Positions 9,701 through 35,467 of a stretch of DNA of 64,000 nt are shown one piece after another. This DNA is from Streptomyces sp. col6 (GTDB taxonomy: Bacteria; Actinomycetota; Actinomycetes; Streptomycetales; Streptomycetaceae): contig NZ_RDBL01000027.1 of the NCBI RefSeq assembly GCF_008042035.1, positions 225,540 through 289,539 on the forward strand, in the 5' to 3' direction. The number at the start of each line of letters is the position of its first letter. Within the stretch, counting starts at the first letter, position 1. The translations under genes were made by a program, and so were the position numbers. The notes beneath the pieces were generated by a model. It saw nothing but the letters and a program-made list of their open reading frames with translations. It had not been told where the DNA came from and searched no databases.

Positions 9701-10819
9701 ATGGCTGAGGAAACGTCCCCGAATGCGTTCGGAGCGACCGGACCCGCAGGTGGGCGGGGTGGTGCCACCGCCGCCCCAGCCCGTCGGAGCGCGCGGCACG
9801 GCGGGCGGGCGACCGCGTCGATGGCGGACGTGGCACGGCTCGCGGGCGTCTCCGCGCAGACCGTCTCCCGGGTCTCCAACGGCTACGCCGGGGTCAACGA
9901 CGCGACGCGCCGCGCGGTCCTGGACGCCATGAAGGAGCTGGACTACCGGCCCAACAGCGCGGCCCGCGCGCTCAAGCGCGGGGAGTTCCGCACGATCGGC
10001 GTCATCACCTTCTCGCTCGCCACCACGGGCAACGTCCGCACGCTGGAGGCCATCGCCACCGCCGCGGCGCGCGAGGGCTACGCGGTGACCCTGCTGCCCG
10101 TGGCCCTGCCGACGCAGGACGAGGTGCGCGGCGCGTTCTCCCGCCTGGAGGAACTGGCCGTCGACGCGGTGATCGTCATCATGGAGGTCCATCTGCTGGA
10201 CGCCGTGACGCTCACCCTGCCGCCGCACGTCCAGGTGGTCGTCGTCGACTCCGACGCCGGCGACCACTACACGGTCGTCGACACCGACCAGGCCGGCGGC
10301 ACCCGCGCAGCCGTACGCCATCTGCTCGACCTCGGGCACGAGACGGTCTGGCATCTCGGCGGGCCGGAGGACTCCTTCGCCGCCCAGCGCCGCGCGGACG
10401 CCTGGCGGGCGGCACTGGCCGAGGCCGGCCGGGTGACGCCACCCCTGGTACGGGGGGACTGGTCGGCGGAGTCCGGCTACCGCGCGGGCCTCGAACTCGC
10501 GCGGGCGTCCGGCTGCGGGGCGGTCTTCGCGGCCAACGACCAGATGGCGCTGGGGCTGCTGCGCGCGCTGCACGAACGGGGCCTGCGCGTGCCCGAGGAC
10601 GTGAGTGTCATCGGGTTCGACGACATCCCCGAGGCGTCCTCGTTCCTGCCGCCCCTGACCACGGTCCACCAGGACTTCGCCGAGGTGGGCCGGCTCTGCG
10701 TGGACGCCGCCCTGCGCAAGGTGCGTCAGGAGGAACCCGAGCGGGGGACGACGCTTGTCCCGACCCGGCTCGTCCTGCGCGCGAGCACGGCCCGGCCCGG
10801 CCGGCGGGACGCGGAGTGA
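9701..10819 (+). CDS. LacI-family repressor of the GH42/CUT1 operon
   Basis: About 372 residues. An unusually long basic, Gly/Ala-rich extension (about 38 residues) precedes the helix-turn-helix ADVARLAGVSAQTVSRVSNG. The hinge helix (YRPNSAARALKRGEF) and a periplasmic-binding-protein-like effector domain follow. The domain ends with the typical FAANDQMALGLLRALHERG and VSVIGFDDIPEA motifs. It is divergent from the transporter-GH42 operon with two matching palindromes between them, so it is the likely local repressor. The effector is probably a galactoside. The ATG is preferred over the GTG two codons upstream by spacing from GAGAG. Confidence 0.92.
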   Translation: MAEETSPNAFGATGPAGGRGGATAAPARRSARHGGRATASMADVARLAGVSAQTVSRVSNGYAGVNDATRRAVLDAMKELDYRPNSAARALKRGEFRTIGVITFSLATTGNVRTLEAIATAAAREGYAVTLLPVALPTQDEVRGAFSRLEELAVDAVIVIMEVHLLDAVTLTLPPHVQVVVVDSDAGDHYTVVDTDQAGGTRAAVRHLLDLGHETVWHLGGPEDSFAAQRRADAWRAALAEAGRVTPPLVRGDWSAESGYRAGLELARASGCGAVFAANDQMALGLLRALHERGLRVPEDVSVIGFDDIPEASSFLPPLTTVHQDFAEVGRLCVDAALRKVRQEEPERGTTLVPTRLVLRASTARPGRRDAE

Positions 10820-10868
10820 TCCGGTACCGCCGGCCGAGCATGCTGACGAACAGTCAGGCGAGCAGCTT

Positions 10869-11120
10869 TCAAAGCCGGTTGTCCCCGCCGTTGCAGGCGT
10901 AGGTGGCGACCTGCGTGTGGACGGCCGGGGTGGCGCCGGGCGCGTCCAGGCACCCTTGTGTGCCGAGGCTGGGCAGGGCCGTGGTGGGCGAGCCGGTGCG
11001 GGTGCCCCAGGCGTACGCGAGGCGGTCGAGGCCCGTGGTGTTGTGGACGCGCAGCCGGGGGGAGCGACGCGGTGCCCTCACGGCGGTAGAGCGCGTACCA
11101 GTCGTAGTCGGGACGGCATG
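10869..11120 (-). pseudogene. Decayed remnant with ricin-type (QxW) lectin similarity
   Basis: The minus strand keeps a frame ending LGTQGCLDAPGATPAVHTQV, then ATYACNGGDNRL and a stop. This looks like one repeat of a ricin-B beta-trefoil, whose repeats usually read C-L-D...G-T-x-V...C-N-G-G-x-x-Q-x-W. Only part of one repeat is left, the terminal QxW is missing, and upstream coding similarity switches frame. I read it as the tail of a lost secreted carbohydrate-active enzyme. Weak evidence: short, low-complexity DNA and no alignment available. Confidence 0.4.
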
Positions 11121-11243
11121 TCCACCGGCACCACACCGTCGGCGCTGCACGTGGCCGACTTCAAGCTTCCCGCCCGAGGGGAGGCGCACAGGGCAGAGCC
11201 TGCCCGGTCCCCGGATCAAGCGGGCCCCGCCCTATGGTGTGTT

Positions 11244-11255
11244 GTTATCGCTCAC
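11244..11255. promoter_or_regulatory. Possible weak second copy of the arabinose operator
   Basis: GTTATCGCTCAC differs from the half-regulon core GTTAGCGCTCAC by one base and lies 67 bp upstream of the good site at galM. It has no promoter boxes at the expected spacing, so it may be an auxiliary site or chance. Confidence 0.35.
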
Positions 11256-11296
11256 CTATGCGGCGTTCTCTTCTGTAGTAGCCCAGTGATGAGGGG

Positions 11297-11325
11297 TTGA
11301 GTGAGGCTAAGTTAGCGCTCACAAT
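11297..11325 (+). promoter_or_regulatory. galM promoter with lac-operator-like site
   Basis: A -35 box TTGAGT (11297-11302), 17-base spacer and -10 box CACAAT (11320-11325) overlap the operator GTTAGCGCTCACAAT (11311-11325). The same geometry is found at the araR and ytfQ promoters, which supports it. Confidence 0.65.
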
Positions 11326-11332
11326 GCTGGGT

Positions 11333-12439
11333 GTGTATCAGTCCGAGAGAACTCCTCCGACCTGCTCCCCGGCCCCCGTCTCCGGAGGCCCACCCGTCTG
11401 CCGCCCCGATCCGTACTCCGGGCAGCGCTGGACCTTCGGCTTCCCCGGCGGGCTCGTGGCGGAGGTGCACACCCGTGGCGCCCGCCTCCACAGCCTCTGG
11501 GCACCCGACCGGCACGGCGCCCCGGCCGACGTCGTCCTCTCGCCCGCCGACCTCGCCGAGACGGCCACCACCGCCCGGTACTTCGGTGCCACGATCGGCC
11601 GTTACGCCAACCGCATCGCCCACGGCCGGTTCACCCTGGACGGCACGTCCCACCGGCTGACGACACAGGACAACGGCCACTGTCTGCACGGCGGAACGGA
11701 CGGGTTCGACAACCGGCTCTGGGAAGCCGAAAGCGTGCACACCCCGGAGCGGACCGGGGTGCTCCTGCACCTCCGCAGCCCCGACGGCGACCAGGGCTTC
11801 CCCGGAAACCTGGACGTCACGGTGGGCATGCTCATCGGCCGCGACGGAGACCTCACCTTCTCCTACGCGGCGGTCACCGACGCCGCCACCCCGGTCAGCC
11901 TGACCAACCACGCCTACTTCAACCTCGAAGGCGAGGGCGCCGGCGACATCCTCGGCCACGAACTGTCCGTCGAGGCAACCCACTTCACACCGGTCGGCCA
12001 GGACCTCATCCCGCGCGGCGGCCATCTCCCCGTCTCCGGCACACCGTTCGACCTGCGCCGGCCGCGCGGGATCGGCGAGGCACTGGCGTACCCGAGTCCC
12101 GAACTCGGCTCCACGGACGGCGGGTTCGACCACAACTTCGTACTGAAGGCGCGCCGGGACGAGGCGCCGCGCACCGCCGCCGTCCTCCACGCCCCGGCCA
12201 CGGGCCGGTTCCTGGAGGTGCTGACCACCGAACCCGGCCTCCAGGTGTACACCGGGGGACAGCTCGACGGGGCTGTCGTCGGCAAGAGCGGTACGCGCTA
12301 CCGGGCGGGCGCGGGCATCGCGCTGGAGACCCAGCACTTCCCGGACTCGCCCAACCGCCGCGGCGACCCGTCCACCGTGCTGCGGCCCGGTGAGGAGTAC
12401 CGGTCGAGGACGGTCCTGCGGTTCGGCACCCGGGACTGA
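11333..12439 (+). CDS. galM: Aldose 1-epimerase (mutarotase)
   Basis: Interconverts alpha and beta anomers of aldoses such as galactose, glucose or L-arabinose. The beta-sandwich family signatures are present: TIGRYANRIAHGRF, the catalytic-region histidine in NGHCLHGGTDGFDNRLWE, VSLTNHAYFNLEG with the second histidine, and the catalytic glutamate in IALETQHFPDSPN near the end. Start choice: TTG at 11297 and ATG at 11324 are also in frame, but the promoter boxes put transcription start at about the GTG at 11333, making a leaderless mRNA. The lac-like operator on the promoter links it to the arabinose regulon. About 368 residues, normal length. Confidence 0.88.
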   Translation: MYQSERTPPTCSPAPVSGGPPVCRPDPYSGQRWTFGFPGGLVAEVHTRGARLHSLWAPDRHGAPADVVLSPADLAETATTARYFGATIGRYANRIAHGRFTLDGTSHRLTTQDNGHCLHGGTDGFDNRLWEAESVHTPERTGVLLHLRSPDGDQGFPGNLDVTVGMLIGRDGDLTFSYAAVTDAATPVSLTNHAYFNLEGEGAGDILGHELSVEATHFTPVGQDLIPRGGHLPVSGTPFDLRRPRGIGEALAYPSPELGSTDGGFDHNFVLKARRDEAPRTAAVLHAPATGRFLEVLTTEPGLQVYTGGQLDGAVVGKSGTRYRAGAGIALETQHFPDSPNRRGDPSTVLRPGEEYRSRTVLRFGTRD

Positions 12440-18594: not shown

Positions 18595-18668
18595 CAGACA
18601 CACCCGTCACCCGCCCGGGACCGCCACGCCCGGACCCTTCGTCCAGCACATCGAGGAGCACACCCGAC

Positions 18669-20177
18669 ATGACGCTCGCCCAGCCCGACCGCGAGATCTG
18701 GTTTCTCACCGGCAGCCAGTCCCTCTACGGGGACGAGACCCTGGCCCAGGTCGCCGAACAGTCGCGGGTCATCCGCGACACCCTCGCGGACCAGCCGCAG
18801 ATGACGGTGCGGCTCGTCTGGAAGCCGGTCCTCACCGACGCGGCCGCCATCCGCAGGGTCTGTCTGGAGGCGAACGCCGACGACCGCTGCGTCGGTCTCA
18901 TCGCGTGGATGCACACCTTCTCCCCGGCCAAGATGTGGATCGCCGGCCTCGACGCGCTCCGCAAACCGCTGCTGCACCTGCACACCCAGGCCAACCGCCG
19001 ACTGCCCTGGTCCACCATCGACATGGACTTCATGAACCTGAACCAGGCCGCCCACGGCGACCGCGAGTTCGGCTTCGTGCAGACCCGCCTCGGCGTCCCC
19101 CGCAAGACCGTGGCCGGCCATGTCACCACCCCCGAGGTCGTCGACCGCATCGCCGGCTGGGCACGCGCCGCGCTCGGCCGCGCCGAGCTCTCCGGCCTCC
19201 GGCTCGCCCGCTTCGGCGACAACATGCGCGACGTCGCCGTCACCGAGGGCGACAAGGTCGAGGCCCAGCTGCGGTTCGGGGTCTCGGTCAACACCTACGG
19301 CGTCAACGACCTGGTCGCCGTGGTCGACTCCGCCGACGAGGACACCGTCACCGCGCTCGTCAAGGAGTACCAGGACCTCTACGCCCTGGCCCCCGAGCTG
19401 CGCCACGGCGGCGAACGCCACGACTCCCTGCGCTACGCCGCCCGCATCGAGGCCGGACTGCGCGCCTTCCTCACCGAGGGCGGCTTCCACGCCTTCACCA
19501 CGAACTTCGAGGACCTCGGCGGCCTGCGCCAGCTGCCCGGCCTCGCCGTGCAGCGCCTGATGGCGGACGGCTACGGCTTCGGTGGCGAGGGCGACTGGAA
19601 GACCTCGGTCCTGCTGCGCACGCTCAAGGCCATGGCGGACGGGCTGCCCGGCGGCACGTCCTTCATGGAGGACTACACCTACGACCTGACGCCCGGTCAG
19701 GAACTTATTCTGGGCGCCCACATGCTGGAGGTGTGCCCCTCGCTCACCACGGCGACCCCGTCCTGCGAGATCCACCCGCTCGGCATAGGCGGCCGCGAGG
19801 ACCCGGTCCGGCTCGTCTTCGACGCGGCCCCCGGGCCGGCCGTCGTCATCGGCCTCGCGGACATGGGCGACCGGTTCCGCCTCGTCGCCAACCACATCGA
19901 CGTCGTCACCCCGCCCGAGCCGCTGCCCGAGCTGCCCGTCGCCCGCGCCGTCTGGCGGCCGCGCCCCGACCTGCGCACCTCCACCGAGGCCTGGCTGACC
20001 GCCGGAGCACCGCACCACACCGTGCTCACCACCGCGCTCGGCGGCGAGGAGCTGGAAGACCTCGCGGAGATGCTGCGCACCGAACTCGTCGTCATCGACC
20101 AGGACACCACCATCCGGCGCTTCACCCGTGAACTGCGCTGGAACCAGGCCTACCACCGTCTGGCCCAGAGCCTGTGA
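18669..20177 (+). CDS. araA: L-arabinose isomerase
   Basis: Converts L-arabinose to L-ribulose using a divalent metal. 502 residues, normal for the family. Recognised from the N-terminal [20 protein letters not shown], the strand [18 protein letters not shown], and the metal/active-site regions [20 protein letters not shown] and [18 protein letters not shown], then [10 protein letters not shown] and MLEVCPSL. The ATG follows GAGGAG at ideal spacing. It lies 74 bases after araB and overlaps the next gene's start. Confidence 0.97.
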
Positions 20178-27119: not shown

Positions 27120-29948
27120 ATGAGCCCAGCCCTCTCCAGGCGCACCCTGCTGCAAGCCGCGGTGTTCACGGCGGCCGCACCCGCCATCGGAACGGCCCTC
27201 CCTCCGTCGGCGGCCGCCGCCGCACCCCGCGCGGCGGCCGCCCCGGCCCTCCCCGTGCCGTCCGCCTGGACGGTCCGCCCCTTCGCCCTCCAGGACGTCG
27301 CACTCGGCTCCGGACTCTTCGCCGGCAAGCGGCAGTTGATGCTCGACCACGCCCGCGGCTACGACGTGAACCGGCTCCTCCAGGTCTTCCGCGCCAACGC
27401 CGGCCTCACGACCGGCGACGCCGTCGCACCCGGCGGCTGGGAGGGGCTGGACGGCGAGGCCAACGGCAATCTGCGCGGCCACTACACCGGCCACTTCCTC
27501 ACCATGCTCTCCCAGGCCTGCGCGAGCACCGGCGACATCGCCCACGCCGACAAGATCCGTTCCATGGTCGGCGCGCTGACCGACGTACGCGAGGCGCTGC
27601 GCCACGAACCCCGGATGCTCGCCGTCCCCGGAAAGTTCGGCACGGGGCAGGACAACGTCCGGGGCTCCTACCAGTACGTGGACCTGCCCGGCACCGTCCT
27701 CGGCACCGGGACCGCGCTCACCCTCTCCGCCTGGATCAGGCCCACACACGCGGACAACTGGGCCCGGGTCTGCGACTTCGGCAACGACACCACCCGCTAC
27801 CTGTACCTAGCGGCCCGCGACGCGAACGGCGTCCCCCGGTTCGCGATCACGACCAACGGACCCGGCGGCGAACAGTCGCTCACCGGGAGCGCCCCGCTGC
27901 CCCTGAACCAGTGGAGCCACCTCGCCGTCACGATCGGCGGCAACACCGGCACGCTGTACGTCAACGGGACGGCCGTCGCCCGCAACACCTCGATGAGCCT
28001 CGGCCCGGCTGCCCTCGGCACCCTCGCCGACCACTGGCTCGGCCGCTCCCACTTCGCGTCCGATCCCGTGTTCGCGGGCGCCTTCGACGAGTTCAACCTC
28101 TGGTCCAGGGCGCTGACCGCCGCCGAGATCACCGCCCTGCAGACCCGGCGCGCACCGGAATCCGCCGCCGGGCGCGGCAACCTCGCCTCGTACGACTTCT
28201 TCGAGACCACCGGCGGCACGTTCACCGACGCCTCGGGCCGCGGCCTGCACGCGACCCTCCGCCGTACCTGGGGCGCCCCGAGCCACCCGGGATTCCTCGC
28301 CGCCTACCCGGAGACCCAGTTCATCGAACTCGAATCGATGACCAACGGCGACTACACGCGCGTATGGGCCCCCTACTACACCGCCCACAAGATCCTGCGC
28401 GGTCTGCTCGACGCCCACCTCGCCACCGCCGACGCGCGGGCCCTCGACCTCGCGTCCGGGCTCTGCGACTGGATGCACTCCCGGCTCTCCAAGCTCCCGG
28501 CGGCCACCCTCCAGCGCATGTGGGGCATCTTCTCCAGCGGCGAGTTCGGCGGGATCGTCGAGGCGATCGTGGACGTGCACGCCCTCACCGGCAAGGCCGA
28601 ACACCTGGCGCTGGCCCGCCTGTTCGACCTCAACCGCCTCATCGACGCCTGCGCGGCCGGCAGCGACGTCCTCCACGGCCTGCACGCCAACCAGCACATC
28701 CCGATCTTCACCGGCTACGCCCGCCTGTACGACGCCACCGGCGAGGAGCGGTACCTCACCGCCGCCAAGAACTTCTGGGACATGGTCATCCCGCACCGCA
28801 TGTACGGCATCGGCGGCACGAGCCAGGGCGAGTTCTGGAAGGCCCGGGACGTCATCGCCGGAACGATCAGCGCGACGACGGCCGAGACCTGTTGCGCGTA
28901 CAACCTGCTCAAGCTGAGCCGCACCCTGTTCTTCCATGACCAGAACCCGAAGTACATGGACTACTACGAGCGCGCTCTGTACAACCAGATCCTGGGCTCG
29001 AAGCAGGACCGGGCGGACGCGGAGAAGCCGCTCGTCACCTACCTGATCGGCCTGTCGCCCGGCCATGTCCGCGACTACACCCCCAAGCAGGGCACCACCT
29101 GCTGCGAGGGCACCGGCATGGAGAGCGCCACCAAGTACCAGGACTCCGTCTACTTCGCGCGCGCAGACGGCAAGGCCCTCTACGTCAACCTCTACAGCGC
29201 CTCCACCCTGACCTGGGCGGAACGCGGCGTCACCGTCGTCCAGACGACCGACTACCCACGAGAGCAGGGCACCACCCTCACCATCGGCGGCTCCACCGCG
29301 GCCTTCGACCTCAAACTACGGGTGCCGGCCTGGGCGACCGCGGGATTCCGGGTGACCGTCAACGGCACCCCAGCCGGCGGCACACCGGTCCCCGGCAGTT
29401 ATCTCACCGTCAGCCGCACCTGGACCGAGGGCGATGTCGTCAAGGTGGAGATCCCCTTCCGGCTCCGGGTGGAGAAGGCCCTGGACGATCCCTCCCTCCA
29501 GACCTTGTTCCACGGACCCGTCAACCTGGTGGGCCGTCACTCCTCGACCACCTACCTGCCGGCCGGGCTGTACCGCAACGCCGCGCTCTCCGGCGACCTG
29601 CTCCCCTCCCTGACACCGGTGGCGGGCAAGCCCCTGCACTACACGCTGGACGGCGTCGAGTTCGCCCCCTTCCACGAGGGCACCACCGACCCGACCCACG
29701 CCTACGTCCGGCGCGCCGAACCCCGCCTGGCCTTCGGCGGCACCGACTCGGGCGCCACCAACCCGGCCCGCGCGGACGGCACCACCCTGCTGGACGAGAT
29801 CTGGTCGGCCGCGCCGTTCGCCTCCAAGGACGCCCTGGTGAACCGGGTCCGGACCACGGTGGACAGCTGGGTCTCCGCCGGCCTGCTCACCCGGGCGGAC
29901 GGCCAGAAGGCACTGACGACCGCCCAGAACGCCACGTACGTCGCCTGA
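27120..29948 (+). CDS. Tat-exported GH127-type beta-L-arabinofuranosidase with LamG insertion
   Basis: 942 residues. A twin-arginine signal (SRRTLLQAAVFTAAAPAIG) with an Ala-rich cleavage region sends it outside the cell folded. The GH127 (alpha/alpha)6 barrel begins at DVALGSGLFAGKRQLMLDHA. It is interrupted at about residues 180-350 by a LamG/concanavalin-like domain (TALTLSAWIRP ... GAFDEFNLWSRALTAAEI) and resumes near ETQFIELESM. Zinc/cysteine catalytic residues known from HypBA1 are conserved as Glu589-x-Cys591 and the pair Cys661-Cys662, Cys661 being the likely nucleophile. It lies 106 bases after the transporter with its own GAGGAG site, so is probably co-transcribed. It would release L-arabinofuranose for that importer. 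Confidence 0.88.
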   Translation: MSPALSRRTLLQAAVFTAAAPAIGTALPPSAAAAAPRAAAAPALPVPSAWTVRPFALQDVALGSGLFAGKRQLMLDHARGYDVNRLLQVFRANAGLTTGDAVAPGGWEGLDGEANGNLRGHYTGHFLTMLSQACASTGDIAHADKIRSMVGALTDVREALRHEPRMLAVPGKFGTGQDNVRGSYQYVDLPGTVLGTGTALTLSAWIRPTHADNWARVCDFGNDTTRYLYLAARDANGVPRFAITTNGPGGEQSLTGSAPLPLNQWSHLAVTIGGNTGTLYVNGTAVARNTSMSLGPAALGTLADHWLGRSHFASDPVFAGAFDEFNLWSRALTAAEITALQTRRAPESAAGRGNLASYDFFETTGGTFTDASGRGLHATLRRTWGAPSHPGFLAAYPETQFIELESMTNGDYTRVWAPYYTAHKILRGLLDAHLATADARALDLASGLCDWMHSRLSKLPAATLQRMWGIFSSGEFGGIVEAIVDVHALTGKAEHLALARLFDLNRLIDACAAGSDVLHGLHANQHIPIFTGYARLYDATGEERYLTAAKNFWDMVIPHRMYGIGGTSQGEFWKARDVIAGTISATTAETCCAYNLLKLSRTLFFHDQNPKYMDYYERALYNQILGSKQDRADAEKPLVTYLIGLSPGHVRDYTPKQGTTCCEGTGMESATKYQDSVYFARADGKALYVNLYSASTLTWAERGVTVVQTTDYPREQGTTLTIGGSTAAFDLKLRVPAWATAGFRVTVNGTPAGGTPVPGSYLTVSRTWTEGDVVKVEIPFRLRVEKALDDPSLQTLFHGPVNLVGRHSSTTYLPAGLYRNAALSGDLLPSLTPVAGKPLHYTLDGVEFAPFHEGTTDPTHAYVRRAEPRLAFGGTDSGATNPARADGTTLLDEIWSAAPFASKDALVNRVRTTVDSWVSAGLLTRADGQKALTTAQNATYVA

Positions 29949-29951
29949 CGC

Positions 29952-29988
29952 CCGGTCCCGCGCACCGCTCACGGTGCGCGGGACCCGG
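29952..29988. terminator. Bidirectional terminator after GH127 gene
   Basis: GGTCCCGCGCACCG pairs with CGGTGCGCGGGACC, a 14-bp perfect stem with a 4-base loop (ctca) plus an outer extension. It sits between convergent genes and closes the sugar island on the right. Confidence 0.85.
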
Positions 29989-30001
29989 CGCAGCCGGACG
30001 G

Positions 30002-32371
30002 TCAGGACTCTCCCGCCGTCGCGGCGACCGTCCCGGAGTGACGCGCGGGGGCCGGGAGGTGTCCGGTCCGGCCCGGCCACCGGAACACGAGGCGGGAGTG
30101 TTCCTTGTCCAGGACGTCCCCGGCGGGCAGCAGTTCATCCGGCGTACCGGCCGGATGGAGGGTCAGGACGGGCTCGGCGTGCCGGTCGTTGTCCTCGGCC
30201 CGGATGTGGCGGTCCCAGGCCCGCACCGTGGCCGCGAGCCGCTCGGCGAGCCGCGGGCCCTGCTCCCCGAAGGCGTGGACGACCCACTCCCATTCCTTGT
30301 CCTCCGGCAGCTCGCCGTGCCGGGTCTGGACATGGGTCAGGTACGCCAACGAGGCCTCGCCGAGGACGGCCGGCGCGTCGCGGCCCTTCGAGAGGGCCGT
30401 GACGCCGGTGTCCCGATGGGCGTGCAGCCGGACGAAGGCCGGCAGGGTGGTGGCCGCGTACAGCTGAAGGGAGCCGAAGTAGGCGTTCGCCCCCATGGTG
30501 ATGCCGGTGGCGAGGTCGTGCCGGGGCCCGCGCAGCGCCTCCTCCAGGCCCGCCGTCGGTGCGGCGGTGCCGTGCTCGAAGCGAAGCGTCAGTTCACCGT
30601 CGAGGAGGGCGGCGGACGGGATGGCGCGTGCCTGCTGTCCCTGGTCCCGGACGAAGCCGCAGTACGTGAAGTGCCGGGCCTCCAGCACCTGACCGTGGCG
30701 TTCGAAGGCGACCGCACGGGTGTAGCCGCCGATCTCCAGCGGCAGGACCAGGCGCCCGCCCTCGGCCAGCTGCTCCCGCCAGGCCGGCGAGACGTCCCAG
30801 CAGCTGTACGTGATCATGCTGCCGTCGAAGCCGCCACGGGGCACGAGGTGGGCGGGGGCGCCGAGTGCCGCGTCCCCCTCGACGACGGTGACCCGCCCGC
30901 TGCCCGCCTCCGTGAGGAAGCGGCGGGTGCGGCGCACCACCCACGGGTCGATGTCGGCGGTCACCACGCGCCCCGCGGCCCCGGCGGCATGCGCGATCAG
31001 CTCGGCGTTGTACCCGCCGGAGCCCGCCTCGAACACGACCGCGCCCGGCTCCGGGCACAGGCTCTCGATCATGTCGGCCTGGAGCCAGGCCGCGGACACC
31101 GAGCTGATCGCCACCCCCACCCCGTCGCGCCGGGTGACGACGGCCCGGTCGCCGCCGTCGTACGCGATCGCGAGAGGTACCTCCGGGGCGAAGCGGTGGC
31201 GGGGCACCGTCCGCAGCGCGTCGCGCACCCGTTCGGACGGGGCCCAGCCGCCGCCGATCACCGTCCCGGCCATCGCATGACGCAGCCGGACCGCCTCGGC
31301 GGGCTCACCCGGCACGGGCGGCTGCTCGCCGACGACGGGGTAGGAGACCACGGACGGCAGGCCGGGAACGACCCCCGGCCACACGGCGTCCAGCGCCTGG
31401 GCGGCCGGCACGAACACGGGGCCGGCGCAGGAGAGGGCGTGCAGATCGAAGAACTCCCAGCGGGAGAACAGCTTCTCCTCCCGGACCGCCGGGGTGCCCG
31501 TCCAGGCGTTGATCCGGACGACGGCCGTGAGCCGTGGAACGCCGTGGCTGTCGTCGACCAGCACGGTCACCACATGCGCGTCCGCCGGTTCGGCGACCAG
31601 CCCGGTCTCCTCGGCGAGTTCACGCACGGCCGCGGCGGCGAAGCCCTCGGCCCCGGTGGTCTTTCCGCCGGGCAGCTCCAGCATGCCGCGCCGGGACCGG
31701 CCGAGCAGGACCCGGCCGGCGTCATCGGTGACGACGGCGAGGGCGCCGGTCAGCGCATGGCCCGTCGTCGGGCTCTTCTCGACGGCTCGGGTGCCGGTGT
31801 GGCCGGGGCCGCGCAGGACCAGGAAGGCCAGGCCGTCGGCGTCCAGCCGCTCCACCATCCGCCAGCCGGCGGCGAGTACGGCGATCTCTTCCTCGTCCAG
31901 GGCGATCCCGCGCCGTTCCTCCGGCGTGTGCTCCACCACCGGCGTGACGACGATCAGAGCACCGCCCTCCCTCAGCCGCTCACCCAGCCCGTGCACGACG
32001 CGACCGCGGTCCTTCAGGAACGGGTATGTCAGCCGCAGCACGACCAGGTCGTACCCCTCCTCGTGCAGCGGGGCCGGGTCGTCGCGCTCAATGTCCAGCG
32101 GCAGCCACCGCACGCCCTCGACACCGGCGTGCTCCTCGCGGGCCCGCCCGAGCGCGTTGCCGGCGAAGTCGACGGCGTCCACGGTGTGACCCAGCGAAGC
32201 CAGGAGGACGGCCAACTCGCCGGTGCCGCAGCCCACATCGAGCGCGCGGCCACCGCCTTCCGGGACAGGGGCGTGCTCGGCGAACAGCTCGCGCTCGCGC
32301 TCACCGACCGGCCGGAACCCCTTGCCGTCGCCGAAGTGCCGGTCCCACTCATCGCGCGTGGTGTATGTCAA
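30002..32371 (-). CDS. Methyltransferase-NUDIX-PIMT-like triple-domain protein
   Basis: About 789 residues with three enzymatic modules. Residues 1-200 are a class I SAM methyltransferase (motif I LDVGCGTGE, motif II VDAVDF). Residues 215-350 are a NUDIX hydrolase with a complete box, G-x5-E-x7-REL-AEE-TGL. From about 390 on comes a domain like protein-L-isoaspartate O-methyltransferase (VPRHRFAPEVPL, AISSVSAAWLQADMIE, VFEAGSGGYNAELIAHAAG). Its long C-terminal extension is as in PIMT homologues linked to RiPP clusters (FxLD, lanthipeptide or graspetide systems). The TTG start follows GAGGAG by seven bases. No peptide-maturation synthetase lies nearby, so the role is open: housekeeping repair and detoxification or peptide modification. 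Confidence 0.82.
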   Translation of the reverse strand: MTYTTRDEWDRHFGDGKGFRPVGERERELFAEHAPVPEGGGRALDVGCGTGELAVLLASLGHTVDAVDFAGNALGRAREEHAGVEGVRWLPLDIERDDPAPLHEEGYDLVVLRLTYPFLKDRGRVVHGLGERLREGGALIVVTPVVEHTPEERRGIALDEEEIAVLAAGWRMVERLDADGLAFLVLRGPGHTGTRAVEKSPTTGHALTGALAVVTDDAGRVLLGRSRRGMLELPGGKTTGAEGFAAAAVRELAEETGLVAEPADAHVVTVLVDDSHGVPRLTAVVRINAWTGTPAVREEKLFSRWEFFDLHALSCAGPVFVPAAQALDAVWPGVVPGLPSVVSYPVVGEQPPVPGEPAEAVRLRHAMAGTVIGGGWAPSERVRDALRTVPRHRFAPEVPLAIAYDGGDRAVVTRRDGVGVAISSVSAAWLQADMIESLCPEPGAVVFEAGSGGYNAELIAHAAGAAGRVVTADIDPWVVRRTRRFLTEAGSGRVTVVEGDAALGAPAHLVPRGGFDGSMITYSCWDVSPAWREQLAEGGRLVLPLEIGGYTRAVAFERHGQVLEARHFTYCGFVRDQGQQARAIPSAALLDGELTLRFEHGTAAPTAGLEEALRGPRHDLATGITMGANAYFGSLQLYAATTLPAFVRLHAHRDTGVTALSKGRDAPAVLGEASLAYLTHVQTRHGELPEDKEWEWVVHAFGEQGPRLAERLAATVRAWDRHIRAEDNDRHAEPVLTLHPAGTPDELLPAGDVLDKEHSRLVFRWPGRTGHLPAPARHSGTVAATAGES

Positions 32372-32786
32372 CGTGCTGCTCCTCGTGTGGTGGGGGCGTT
32401 CACGGGCGCGGCTCCCGCTCGGCGTATTCAACGACGCCGCAGCGCTGTCGAGCACCTGCTCTTTCGGACGGGCCGGATGTGCCGGGGTTGAGCGGTCCGG
32501 CGTCGCTGCGCACCGCACGCCCCTTGCCGCGCAAGGCCTCGCGGGTGGGGACCGGTTGGCCGAAACGCCGATGCACGCGTGCCGTCACTGTCCGCGATCG
32601 GCCGCGCCCCTCGGGGCCCGGCGACGAGGCGCCGGGCACAAGTCGGCAGCCTGTGTGTCACTTTCGGGTGGGGTCACCCGTATGGATCGTTCCCTTCGGT
32701 GATGAAAGTCGTTGGGGACTCTGGAATCCCGAAAATGATCACGATCGAACACCCTGCGTGTCCGGTGCGATTGCAGGAGGTAGGAA
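32372..32786. other. Long non-coding gap between divergent genes
   Basis: 415 bases without a supportable gene on either strand. The left half is GC-rich like coding DNA but keeps no conserved frame. The right part contains a small inverted repeat, CGGGTG-GGGT-CACCCG (32665-32680), followed by TATGGA, which may be promoter elements of the small gene downstream. Nothing else is recognised. Confidence 0.4.
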
Positions 32787-33074
32787 ATGCTCTCTCTGCT
32801 GGAGAGCTTCTACGACACGATGGACGAGCTGCACGTCGACTTCTGCCGGCGTCTGGAGGACATCGAGCAAGAGGCTTGGTCCGCCCCGGTGCCGAGTGCC
32901 TCCGACGAAAGCGGGCACGACCCGCAAGCGGACAGGTTCGAGGAGATCCGGTATCCGCTCGGGCTGCGTCAGTTCTGGACCGATGACCGTCTGTCGCCCG
33001 AACCCGCGGAAGAACTGGAAGAGAAAGGGCTTGAGAAGAAAGGGTTCTCCGGCCCGTCTCACCCTCACCGGTGA
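32787..33074 (+). CDS. Small acidic protein of unknown function
   Basis: 95 residues, preceded by a near-perfect ribosome site (AGGAGGTAGGAA), so it is very likely translated. The N-terminal part (LLESFYDTMDELHVDFCRRL) looks like an amphipathic helix with one Cys. The middle is Ser/Asp-rich, and the C-terminus is a charged Glu/Lys stretch ending in Pro-His. No signal peptide, membrane helix or known motif. It is divergent from the triple-domain methyltransferase and upstream of a tiny secreted-peptide gene. I do not recognise the family. Confidence 0.55.
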   Translation: MLSLLESFYDTMDELHVDFCRRLEDIEQEAWSAPVPSASDESGHDPQADRFEEIRYPLGLRQFWTDDRLSPEPAEELEEKGLEKKGFSGPSHPHR

Positions 33075-33133
33075 CTCGAAGGAACGATTCACCTCCACCC
33101 GCCCATTCGCTCGCTCCTACGAATGCAGAGACT

Positions 33134-33250
33134 GTGAAGAAGCTCATCGCGACCGTGCTGTTCACCGCGACGTTTGTCCTGGGCACCGCCATGGCCGCCC
33201 CCACCACCCTGACCGGCTCGGCCTCCGACTTCGTCGGGGGCGCCCCATGA
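33134..33250 (+). CDS. Tiny secreted peptide, signal peptide plus about 17 residues
   Basis: A GTG-initiated frame of 38 codons: VKKLIATVLFTATFVLGTAM, then AAPTTLTGSASDFVGGAP and stop. The first half is a textbook Sec signal (Lys-Lys, hydrophobic core, AMA-A cleavage), leaving a short Thr/Ser/Gly-rich peptide. The ribosome site is weak (GCAGAG). It lies 59 bases after the small acidic gene and 141 bases before the methyltransferase gene. Function unknown; it could be an extracellular signal or a non-functional short frame. Confidence 0.45.
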   Translation: MKKLIATVLFTATFVLGTAMAAPTTLTGSASDFVGGAP

Positions 33251-33391
33251 ATCCGCCGGCCCGCTCCGAAACCCGTTTCCCGTAAGGGAGTTGCCTCCCG
33301 TCGAGCTGGTGCGGACGTCGCTCGTGAGGAAGCATGGGCCTGCGCGGCACGGAGTCGTCCGTGCCGCCGTCGTACGAGGCGAAGAGGGCCG

Positions 33392-34192
33392 ATGACTGAC
33401 GGGCAGGGCAACCAGGTGGCGGTGGACGGGTTCGACACGGGCACGCCGCACTCGGCGCGGGTGTGGAACTACTGGCTGGGCGGCAAGGACAACTACGAGG
33501 TGGACCGCCGGCTCGGCGCCACGATGGAGGAGCTGTTCCCCCAGATCATCGGGATAGCCCGCGCCTCCCGGGCGTTCCAGGCCCGAGCAGTGCGCCATCT
33601 GGCTGCCGAGGCGGGGGTGCGCCAGTTCCTGGACCTCGGCACGGGCCTGCCGACGGCGAACGCCACGCACGAGGTCGCCCAGGCCGTCGAGCCGACGGCA
33701 CGCATCGTCTACGTGGACAACGACCCGATCGTCCTCGCCCACGCCCAGGCCCTGCTGACGAGCCGGCCCGAGGGCGCCACGGACTATGTGCACGCGGACC
33801 TGAGGGACGTCGAGGCGGTGCTGCGCCAGGCCGCCCGCACCCTGGACCTCGACCGGCCGGTGGCCGTGATGGTGCTCTCGACGCTGGGGCACGTGGCGGA
33901 CTCGGAGGAGGCCGCGGCGCTGCTCCACGGCTACCTGGACGCGCTGCCGGCGGGCAGCTACCTGATGCTGTGCGACACCATCGAGACCACGGAGACGAAG
34001 GCGGGGTCCGACGAATACGCCAGCGGCGGCGCCATGCCGTACGTCTCGCGTCCCAAGGAGCTCATCGCCGCCTTCGCGGACGGGCTCGAACTGGTGGAGC
34101 CGGGCTTCGGCTCGATCAGCCTCTGGCGCCCCGAGGAGCCGGTCGTCGGAGACCCGGTCGACCAGTGGGGATTCGTGGCCGCCAAGCGGTAG
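33392..34192 (+). CDS. SAM-dependent methyltransferase, DUF574 family
   Basis: 266 residues, full length for this actinobacterial family (Methyltransf_19). Signature N-terminus GTPHSARVWNYWLGGKDNYE, then the SAM-binding LDLGTGLPTANATHEVAQ, acidic VYVDNDPIVLAHAQALL, and VLSTLGHVADSEEAAALL. Expected to be cytoplasmic; substrate unknown. These proteins are highly multiplied in streptomycetes, often next to small regulatory genes. The start follows AGAGGG at good spacing. Confidence 0.88.
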   Translation: MTDGQGNQVAVDGFDTGTPHSARVWNYWLGGKDNYEVDRRLGATMEELFPQIIGIARASRAFQARAVRHLAAEAGVRQFLDLGTGLPTANATHEVAQAVEPTARIVYVDNDPIVLAHAQALLTSRPEGATDYVHADLRDVEAVLRQAARTLDLDRPVAVMVLSTLGHVADSEEAAALLHGYLDALPAGSYLMLCDTIETTETKAGSDEYASGGAMPYVSRPKELIAAFADGLELVEPGFGSISLWRPEEPVVGDPVDQWGFVAAKR

Positions 34193-34235: not shown

Positions 34236-35087
34236 ATGCTGACAGAGGTTACCGCGACCCGCTATGTCACGCCCCTGCGTGAAGGCGGCTCGCTCCCCGG
34301 GATCGTCGAGGCCGACGACCTCGGCACGTACGTCATGAAATTCACCGGAGCCGGCCAGGGCCGCAAGACCCTGGTCGCGGAGGTGATCTGCGGGCAGCTC
34401 GGGCGCCGGCTCGGGCTGCGCGTGCCCGAGCTGGTGCAGATCCAGCTGGACCCCGTCATCGGGCTCGCCGAGCCCGACCAGGAGGTGCAGGAGCTGCTCA
34501 AGGCCAGCGGCGGGCTCAACCTCGGGATGGACTTCCTGCCCGGCTCGCTCGGCTTCGACGCCCTCGCCTACGAGGTGGACCCGCGCGAGGCCGGGCGGGT
34601 CGTCTGGTTCGACGCGCTGATCAACAACGTCGACCGGTCCTGGCGCAACCCGAACATGCTCGTCTGGCACGGCGACCTCTGGCTCATCGACCACGGCGCC
34701 ACGATGATCTGGCACCACAACTGGCCCGGCGCCCAGGCGTCCGCCGCCAAGCCGTACAACGCCTCCGACCACGCGCTCGCCCCGTTCGGACCCGACATCG
34801 CGACGGCCGCGGCCGAACTCGCCCCGCTGGTGACGCCCGGCCTCCTCGCCGAGGTCGCCGCCGACGTCCCCGACGAGTGGCTGGTGGACGAGCCGGGCTT
34901 CGACTCGACGGACCAGCTGCGCCGGGCCTACGTGGACGCGCTGCTCGCGCGGGCGGCCACCATCCACGAGCGGATCGTCATGGACGCGCCCACCCCCGAC
35001 AAACCCTCCCAGGCCCCGGGCTGGATCACCGAGCGCCTCGCCCCGCGCCACCACCTCACGGACAGCGACAAGGGCGGCCGGGCATGA
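34236..35087 (+). CDS. HipA-like kinase domain protein
   Basis: 283 residues resembling the HipA-like kinase family. Visible kinase elements: YVMKFTGAGQGRKTLVAE (ATP-binding lysine region), the catalytic-loop-like VWFDALINNVDRSWRNPNML, and metal-binding LWLIDHGATMIWHHNW. The HipA N-terminal HIRAN-like lobe and a HipB-type antitoxin are absent, so it is not a classical HipBA system. The ATG lies six bases after TAGCCT, pointing to a leaderless mRNA. The stop overlaps the next gene (ATGA); the two form a conserved actinobacterial-looking pair. The substrate to be phosphorylated is unknown. Confidence 0.78.
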   Translation: MLTEVTATRYVTPLREGGSLPGIVEADDLGTYVMKFTGAGQGRKTLVAEVICGQLGRRLGLRVPELVQIQLDPVIGLAEPDQEVQELLKASGGLNLGMDFLPGSLGFDALAYEVDPREAGRVVWFDALINNVDRSWRNPNMLVWHGDLWLIDHGATMIWHHNWPGAQASAAKPYNASDHALAPFGPDIATAAAELAPLVTPGLLAEVAADVPDEWLVDEPGFDSTDQLRRAYVDALLARAATIHERIVMDAPTPDKPSQAPGWITERLAPRHHLTDSDKGGRA

Positions 35088-35467
35088 ACGAGCGCGATGT
35101 CTTCGAGTACGCGCTGCTGCGCGTCGTACCCCGTGTCCAGCGCGGGGAGTGCTTCAACGCCGGCGTGGTGGTCTACTGCCGTGCCAAGGGCTTCGTGGCC
35201 GCCCGCACCGAGCTGGACGAGACCAAGCTGAAGGCGCTGGACCCCGGCGCCGACGTGACCGGGGTCCGGGCCGCACTGCACGCCGTTGAGGGCGTCTGCC
35301 GCGGCGGTACGGACGCGGGCCAGGCCGCCGGCGACGACGCGGGCCGCCGCTTCCGCTGGCTGATCGCGCCCCGCTCCACCGTCGTACAGCCGGGACCCGT
35401 GCACAGCGGCCTCACCACCGATCCCGAGGCCGAGGTGGAACGGCTGCTCGACCTGCTGGTGCGCTGA
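35084..35467 (+). CDS. DUF3037 domain protein
   Basis: 127 residues. The start FEYALLRVVPRVQRGECFNA, GVVVYCR and the later RFRWLIAPRSTVVQPGPVHS are typical of DUF3037, a family without assigned activity. It is translationally coupled to the HipA-like kinase gene by a four-base overlap, so the two products probably act together, either as enzyme and partner or as kinase and substrate. No membrane or secretion signal. Confidence 0.82.
   Translation: MNERDVFEYALLRVVPRVQRGECFNAGVVVYCRAKGFVAARTELDETKLKALDPGADVTGVRAALHAVEGVCRGGTDAGQAAGDDAGRRFRWLIAPRSTVVQPGPVHSGLTTDPEAEVERLLDLLVR

Follow-up and report, generated by a model that had tools for sequence, protein, structure and literature searches.

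The 64,000-nucleotide stretch of the Streptomyces sp. col6 genome considered here (contig NZ_RDBL01000027.1, positions 225,540 to 289,539; hereafter the window) carries on its minus strand a gene whose product unites an S-adenosylmethionine (SAM)-dependent methyltransferase, a NUDIX hydrolase and a PIMT-like aspartyl O-methyltransferase (PAMT) in one polypeptide. Directly upstream lies an element of about 190 bp, the cluster leader, which is homologous to an element preceding the first gene of a multi-gene cluster in other genomes. In the window the leader and the fusion are kept and the other cluster genes are absent, so that the fusion appears to be all that is left here of the genes of a cluster that some relatives carry on large plasmids. 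The features of the gene and its leader, all on the minus strand, are as follows.

30002..32371 (-): coding sequence of the fusion, 789 amino acids, TTG start at 32371
31787..32371 (-): N-terminal class I SAM methyltransferase domain, residues 1-195, with the motif ALDVGCGTGE
31337..31774 (-): NUDIX domain, residues 200-345, from Pfam and the structure model
31598..31666 (-): NUDIX box GKTTGAEGFAAAAVRELAEETGL, residues 236-258
30077..31294 (-): PAMT, residues 360-765, from TIGR04364, PCMT and the 1dl5 fold match
30200..30523 (-): C-terminal domain of the PAMT, residues 617-724, strand-helix-4 strands-helix by DSSP of the model
32367..32572 (-): cluster leader, conserved upstream element (nhmmer 1.3e-34, and alignments)
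32448-32467 (-): dyad region within the leader, which also contains CGTCGTTGA at 32428-32436

The fusion protein

The frame at 30002-32371 is open, with 0 internal stops on translation, and a short way 5' of its TTG start lies AGGAG, the fusion's own ribosome-binding site; an alternative in-frame GTG at 32518 would give 838 residues, the added stretch overlapping the leader. Pfam places Methyltransf_25 at residues 44-137 (7e-16), NUDIX at residues 209-313 (1.3e-13) and PCMT at residues 375-574 (5.4e-22), and the GX5EX7REUXEEXGU signature of the NUDIX box is intact. The NCBIfam model TIGR04364 (‘methyltransferase, FxLD system’) is matched over its whole length by residues 360-765, with 341.8 bits against a cut-off of 320. 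An AlphaFold model built from 20 aligned sequences (mean predicted local distance difference test score 76.9, predicted template-modelling score 0.58) consists of folded parts joined by weak linkers, and in a search with the model, its C-terminal domain included, the closest fold in the PDB was 1dl5, the PIMT of T. maritima (388 columns, TM-score by target 0.56). The C-terminal extension of the PAMT exceeds 100 residues, and DSSP reads its order in the model as E-H-E-E-E-E-H. A first-pass annotation of this DNA had described a SAM motif, a NUDIX box and a PIMT-like domain in one chain, which the Pfam matches and the intact motifs bear out; its further remark that the PIMT-like domain has an extension of the type found in enzymes of ribosomally synthesized and post-translationally modified peptides (RiPPs) agrees with the order of elements in residues 617-724.

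It is confirmed that the three-domain chain is genuine, a methyltransferase, a NUDIX domain and a PAMT in a single Streptomyces protein. Given its open frame, its domain matches, the retention of its motifs across copies and its recurrence in the genus, the fusion is neither a chance open reading frame (ORF) nor a product of misassembly. The protein is already present in databases, where RefSeq names such proteins ‘fxlM, methyltransferase, FxLD system’.

Recurrence and conservation

A scan of genome contigs returned 54 fusion-related loci in Streptomyces and close relatives. Among 199 genomes of the same genus, 93 gave some match at E <= 1e-40 and 23, the col6 genome included, gave a single match spanning at least residues 51-764 (two of these rows with a counted stop). 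The gene is split by frame in at least three further genomes (G015, G133 and G086), and the remaining matches in the genus are to the methyltransferase and NUDIX parts only, the methyltransferase only or the PAMT only. Phage sequences gave no match to the fusion at E 1e-15.

Conservation of motifs was assessed over 60 full-length copies, namely 59 of the 80 loci that gave a match, together with the window, drawn from source collections that overlap. Motif I of the methyltransferase is present in all 60, the strict NUDIX box in 56 and the strict PAMT motif-I pattern in 52, the window copy among them; five of the eight misses are off by one position, and the other three read GSDGYN (L046 and L072) and GSGP-N (L087). 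The first-pass annotation had allowed that the domains might prove to lack catalytic residues on alignment; the window copy and almost all of the others retain the key motifs. Between the window gene and its relative at locus L010 the ratio of nonsynonymous to synonymous substitution rates (dN/dS) is about 0.30 overall and 0.28-0.35 per domain, and the window gene therefore does not look like a pseudogene.

The cluster in relatives

The genes that accompany the fusion were counted in 52 loci, 51 with the fusion or a piece of it and the window. The most frequent companions are triple-NUDIX-type genes (31 loci), a NUDIX-APH kinase (25), an ABC exporter (23), a second PAMT-like gene (22), a PIG-L deacetylase (21) and a SAM methyltransferase (20), followed by APH and double-NUDIX genes (14 each), a VanX-like peptidase (13), MFS transporters (12) and an APH-like protein (10); HIT and amidase-like proteins, the latter below its cut-off, also occur as partners. 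At least three companion genes are found in 34 of the 52 loci, on chromosomes as well as on large plasmids. The linkage is more than shared synteny, because most neighbour families outside the core set (465 of 526) occur at a single locus. The survey of orthologous neighbourhoods that the first-pass annotation had proposed has in this way revealed a cluster of NUDIX, kinase and exporter genes, of which the window keeps the leader and the fusion.

In PLSDB, 63 plasmid records match the fusion, 23 of which cover at least 80% of it; a full-length fusion is carried by these 23 records, 21 of them 290-800 kb in size, and the plasmid copies are annotated fxlM in RefSeq. On a linear plasmid of 399 kb the order is EEP phosphatase, ABC exporter, NUDIX, MFS, PAMT-type methyltransferase (our own reading of a gene annotated ‘methyltransferase domain-containing protein’), methyltransferase, phosphotransferase, fxlM, hypothetical protein, glycosyltransferase and PIG-L, with the leader 5' of the exporter gene. 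Related versions of the cluster occur on pFRL3, pFRL5 and pFRL6. PADLOC matches in the data (mad2, mad3, PDC-S07 and others) were set aside as evidence for a defence role, as they fall on generic methyltransferase, ATPase and NUDIX regions.

The same modules recur in other arrangements. At L159 a leader is followed by ABC, PAMT and two NUDIX genes as separate genes, and at L167 an ABC gene is followed by a PAMT-NUDIX-NUDIX fusion and a separate methyltransferase; L141 and L144 have the leader, an ABC gene and a short methyltransferase, and stand-alone PAMTs lie behind the same kind of exporter at L159 and L160. Further fusions are MT-ASCH-NUDIX (L145; MT, methyltransferase), NUDIX-APH (L009) and MT-NUDIX (L131). 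Because the same activities are joined repeatedly, whether as linked genes or in other fusions, the modules probably serve one pathway, and this repeated joining is the best evidence for it. The first-pass annotation had raised a new repair or modification pathway; modification is plausible, since within one recurrent type of cluster the modules are also encoded by separate, linked genes and combined in other fusions; the repair half of the proposal is not supported, the cut-offs of the canonical PIMT models being missed. The outcome that it named as counting against its reading, orthologues commonly existing as three independent, unlinked genes, is half borne out: stand-alone PAMTs are common and some MT-NUDIX and methyltransferase relatives lack partners, yet 15 of 20 such PAMTs whose neighbourhoods were fetched lie in lanthipeptide clusters and belong to the sister clade described below, and unfused methyltransferase, NUDIX and PAMT genes are likewise linked in ABC/NUDIX clusters.

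Several relatives share parts of the chain. Proteins of about 490 residues with the same N-terminal methyltransferase are encoded at L145:8046-9527, L140:9028-10509 and L147:8782-10257, the L145 copy being MT-ASCH-NUDIX by Pfam. At L132-L138 and L149 there are MT-NUDIX relatives of about 340-384 residues, 50-62% identical to the window protein, which occur without the cluster (L132 has a weak ABC relative) and perhaps form a separate branch.

A small ORF of 40-51 codons recurs 5' of the ABC exporter gene or the fusion at nine loci (L012, L016, L020, L034, L035, L040, L049, L051 and L052). It has its own ribosome-binding site, its frame and start are kept, its stop overlaps the next start, and its product mostly ends in DT(R/G)W(G/A)A; much of the conservation at this end could come from the ribosome-binding site that serves the following gene. 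The ORF is only putatively coding, and as a precursor of a RiPP or pamtide it was rejected, the ratio of nonsynonymous to synonymous polymorphism (pN/pS) being 0.7-0.8 in the three closest pairs and 0.87 and 1.4 in two distant ones.

The leader

A search for the leader in 295 genomes of the same genus gave a match at E <= 1e-3 in 35, with one match in the genome of the window. Thirty loci were returned and 28 examined, in 27 of which a profile confirmed the leader. The first cluster homologue 3' of it is the ABC exporter in 19 cases, a NUDIX gene in six and a fusion or methyltransferase-type protein in two, one of these being the window. When 37 distinct leaders are compared, the most strongly conserved blocks include a dyad-like CCGAAA-ACATGTGTTCGAAA and CGTCGTTGA. 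The leader is treated as a candidate DNA element of the promoter or operator type. A structured RNA or riboswitch, to which hairpins picked out by eye had pointed, was considered and rejected, as 15 sequences give a weak consensus fold of -11.19 kcal/mol, with a covariation term of -0.3 and changes on both sides in 2 of 14 pairs; Rfam gave no match at E up to 1 in L009, L017, L010 or window positions 29900-33500. Whatever its role, the leader provides a handle for finding many copies of the cluster, including the fuller plasmid versions.

A second type of leader is common to other loci. The exact dyad GAACN4GTTC, which we take to resemble the LexA box or ‘SOS box’, occurs at 27 sites in 1,173,730 bp; nine of these belong to loci with the second type, where they lie 5' of the small ORF, the fusion or the first cluster gene (L012 2398, L016 2791, 5' of the small ORF, L018 6171, L025 5084, L027 9885, L035 7325, L040 9599, L049 8258 and L052 6159). 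A LexA/SOS site was dismissed as an explanation of the leader, the first type, to which the window belongs, having a different dyad.

An apparently collapsed locus

The traces of collapse are to be read from the junction upstream of the fusion. In relatives the end of the NUDIX-APH gene precedes the fusion; in the window the leader is joined straight to the stretch just 5' of it. L010 presents the order leader, first codons of the ABC gene, apparent last codons of NUDIX-APH, and fusion. At L051 an ABC exporter, a triple NUDIX, a PAMT and the fusion lie beside the same HipA_2/DUF3037 pair as in the window (92% and 96% protein identity, and 90% DNA identity over 1406 bases), and the other flank has sugar-transport-like and arabinan-type genes. 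Both copies look chromosomal. L051 carries the second leader type and the window the first, and therefore the two clusters may have reached this site independently. On another contig of the col6 genome, C89, a 113-residue piece that resembles the triple-NUDIX gene at its start lies together with a 44-46% ABC relative. The window genome is of interest as an example of one cluster enzyme retained under the leader of the cluster after its partners were lost. The neighbours in the window are listed below.

32787..33074 (+): ORF of 95 amino acids, divergent from the fusion, with no Pfam or NCBIfam match
33392..34192 (+): Methyltransf_19 SAM methyltransferase (Pfam 1.5e-92), a neighbour whose membership of the cluster is not shown
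34236..35467 (+): HipA_2 kinase-like and DUF3037 pair, the same pair that flanks the fuller cluster in L051
27120..29948 (+): GH127 beta-L-arabinofuranosidase with an internal Laminin_G_3 domain, on the other flank and outside the system

The GH127 gene (27120-29948, +) adjoins what is taken to be an arabinose-type operon, and a 38-residue ORF with a signal-peptide-like start (MKKLIATVLFTATFVLGTAMA) lies at 33134-33250 (+).

The PAMT domain and the FxLD label

The label ‘FxLD system’ would make the fusion an FxLD O-methyltransferase, of a class I lanthipeptide system, that has in this case become parted from its peptide. In favour of this, TIGR04364 is matched over the whole model above its cut-off and plasmid copies are annotated fxlM. 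Moreover, the two kinds of cluster do meet: directly upstream of the leader-ABC-PAMT-NUDIX cluster at L159 is a class I lanthipeptide cluster (L159:12032-18834) that comprises LanB- and LanC-like genes, another and longer PAMT and, at 18649-18834, an FxLD-type precursor; LanB/LanC homologues occur at L028; and the lanthipeptide loci L164 and L166 contain a 53-55% relative of the NUDIX-APH gene, one part common to both cluster types. Against it, the FxLD precursor model TIGR04363 has no match in the col6 genome (14 control genomes are likewise silent), and L028 is the only one among 51 fusion loci to have LanB/LanC homologues, the window having none. Among 40 fusion-bearing genomes, 12 have a TIGR04363 match anywhere, irrespective of its distance from the fusion, and an FxLD-like pattern was absent from the small ORFs of the fusion loci.

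A phylogeny of the PAMT domain (68 rows, midpoint root, with long-branch warnings from the program) bears on the same question. The 22 fusion rows and five cluster rows form one clade with support of 99/99, and 15 lanthipeptide rows form another with 93/93, a further lanthipeptide row from L166 being placed elsewhere; the sister link of the two clades has support of 89/82 under the midpoint root. The five cluster rows are the stand-alone PAMTs of L159 and L160, the PAMT-NUDIX-NUDIX of L167, a 716-residue protein of L169 whose domains were not scanned, and a piece from L150 without the methyltransferase domain. From this tree the fusion PAMTs appear as sister to the lanthipeptide PAMTs and not nested within them. 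TIGR04364 gives 582 bits to the lanthipeptide-context PAMT of L151, 342-382 to the five fusions scored, and 342-393 to the scored fusions and cluster PAMTs taken together. Stand-alone PAMT relatives are common in the genus, and of 20 PAMT-only neighbourhoods that were fetched, 15 (L151-L158, L161-L166 and L168) proved to be lanthipeptide clusters of class I, in which homologues of LanB and LanC are present. Since the col6 genome lacks an FxLD precursor match, the locus lacks LanB and LanC, and the PAMT clade is sister to that of the lanthipeptides, the RefSeq label fits poorly and the fusion is probably not an FxLD lanthipeptide enzyme; a role in an FxLD system we consider highly improbable, and the label on these proteins is probably misleading.

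The WXXXGXP motif is absent from all 16 lanthipeptide-context PAMTs and present in 12 of 22 rows of the second PAMT family (C4); this distribution implies that the motif does not define the whole PAMT family. An ATP-grasp homologue occurs at one fusion locus, L029. Elsewhere in the col6 genome, L100 (contig C6, about 10216-11552) looks like a reduced graspetide locus: a 67-residue ORF there is similar to the ATP-grasp-like protein of L029, and the PAMT that comes after it groups with the second family.

What the fusion may do

We give an even chance to the proposal that the fusion is a trifunctional tailoring enzyme derived from a conserved Streptomyces cluster, carried on plasmids and chromosomes and collapsed here to its leader and one gene. 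The proposal builds on the three domains, their motifs, the linkage in relatives, the leader in common and the loss from this site of the other cluster genes. The PAMT domain would methylate the carboxylate of an aspartyl (or isoaspartyl) residue in a partner peptide or protein, and the resulting methyl ester could proceed to an aspartimide or isoaspartate. Hydrolysis by the NUDIX domain would be directed at a nucleoside-diphosphate-linked intermediate or at the product in a toxic form, the N-terminal domain would methylate a small molecule, and the partner ABC and MFS transporters would export the product. Holding three activities in one chain would couple steps of a single pathway. Our best guess is a role in tailoring of, and self-protection from, an exported metabolite, possibly one containing a peptide or nucleotide. 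More tentatively, and with distinctly less confidence, clusters of the leader-ABC-NUDIX-PAMT-methyltransferase kind might make an undescribed class of such exported peptide- or nucleotide-containing metabolites, with large plasmids of Streptomyces responsible for part of their spread; a single chain would there link NUDIX hydrolysis and a second methylation to the methylation of aspartyl residues by PAMTs of a distinct clade, and such a class would account for part of the 3653 PAMTs, out of 9408, that have no known context in PMC10787088. If the cluster is indeed a pathway, a PAMT clade of no known function becomes tied to NUDIX, kinase and exporter partners.

A number of observations weigh against this proposal. 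The leader is not universal, its first type being detected by profile in 17 of the 54 scanned loci besides the window, and it is found in seven plasmid records, just three of which are among the 23 with a full-length fusion. In eight of the 52 loci, one of them the window, the flanks that were retrieved contain no core companion, and the linkage counts come from loci found by way of the fusion in related species and are not independent samples. Among 20 neighbourhoods of methyltransferase, MT-NUDIX or partial relatives, core companions at 45% identity or more are present in six only (L131, L141, L144, L146, L147 and L150). None of the small-ORF families listed for the fusion loci is precursor-like, and no substrate peptide was found among them; WXXXGXP is absent near the C-terminus of all 60 fusions; and as no backbone-building enzyme common to the clusters was seen, a natural product is only inferred. 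Part of the divergence that underlies the dN/dS of about 0.30 may also be older than the collapse.

Other roles are conceivable. One is damage repair or house-cleaning, PIMT-type repair of proteins being combined with NUDIX sanitation of nucleotides, while damaged metabolites would be dealt with by the kinases, PIG-L, HIT and amidase-like proteins among its partners. The partners, with several NUDIX proteins, PIG-L, APH kinases, HIT and an amidase-like protein below its cut-off, do resemble such enzymes; however, the canonical PIMT repair models are missed by a wide margin (TIGR00080 70 versus 159.05 bits, NF001453 69.8 versus 188 bits), the PAMT has the RiPP-type order of its C-terminal domain, and the cluster is accessory, partly on plasmids, with an exporter gene usually first behind the leader. 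We regard house-cleaning as unlikely. It is less likely still that the fusion serves a mobile element, in conjugal immunity or plasmid upkeep, in the manner of Pif, a NUDIX protein encoded by pSAM2. The presence of full-length copies in 23 plasmid records would agree with such a role, as would the accounts of NUDIX genes on actinomycete integrative and conjugative elements (AICEs), of Pif-mediated conjugal immunity and of pcmt, methyltransferase and LigT genes among the cargo of Frankia AICEs in the available text of PMC3218068 and PMC9513070. Yet 46 of the 63 matching plasmid records are predicted non-mobilizable, a prediction that may be weak for plasmids of this kind, there are chromosomal-looking copies (L051 and the window), and an exporter together with many small-molecule enzymes would be left unexplained. 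Finally, the gene in col6 might be a relic without function, as suggested by the absence of its partners and by split or truncated copies in several other genomes; its open frame, intact motifs, own ribosome-binding site and retained leader, and its dN/dS against L010, make this very unlikely.

Comparison with known systems

A literature search, whose coverage left out most subscription journals, found no paper on the fusion or on the cluster. The nearest described enzymes are the PAMTs of RiPP pathways, the new name given to the PIMT homologues associated with RiPPs, whose extra domain has the strand-helix-4 strands-helix order according to the available text of PMC10787088. Such enzymes (OlvSA/LanSA, TceM, AmdM and SsfM; PMC10787088, PMC13001092) share with the fusion the PIMT core, the SAM motif and a C-terminal extension of more than 100 residues in that order. 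They are described in the accessible part of PMC13001092 as methylating a chosen aspartate, which leads to an aspartimide or isoaspartate, and WXXXGXP is placed there near the C-terminus of lasso, graspetide and imiditide enzymes. The fusion PAMT differs in sitting behind a SAM methyltransferase and a NUDIX domain, in lacking WXXXGXP and in having no RiPP core enzyme or precursor found in the window, the comparison with OlvSA being one of description and not of sequence. It may be among the context-less PAMTs of PMC10787088, in the main text of which the word ‘nudix’ does not appear.

The fusion is like fxlM of TIGR04364 in its whole-model match and unlike it in scoring barely above the cut-off, in falling outside the lanthipeptide clade and in coming from a genome without an FxLD precursor match. 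The RefSeq ‘bifunctional class I SAM-dependent methyltransferase/NUDIX hydrolase’ corresponds to its MT-NUDIX part but has no PAMT domain; one RefSeq example lies in a similar cluster, whereas the relatives at L132-L138 and L149 have hardly any companions. Pif resembles it, by description and not by sequence, as a NUDIX domain on Streptomyces mobile DNA, but the available text of PMC3218068 describes no methyltransferase, PAMT or exporter partners for it. Although no FHA or VWA domain occurs among the Pfam-scanned companions here, NUDIX and kinase genes being present instead, the FHA-VWA-associated PAMT clusters outlined in the accessible portion of PMC10787088 offer a parallel, for there too a PAMT belongs to a conserved multi-gene cluster with ABC transporters.

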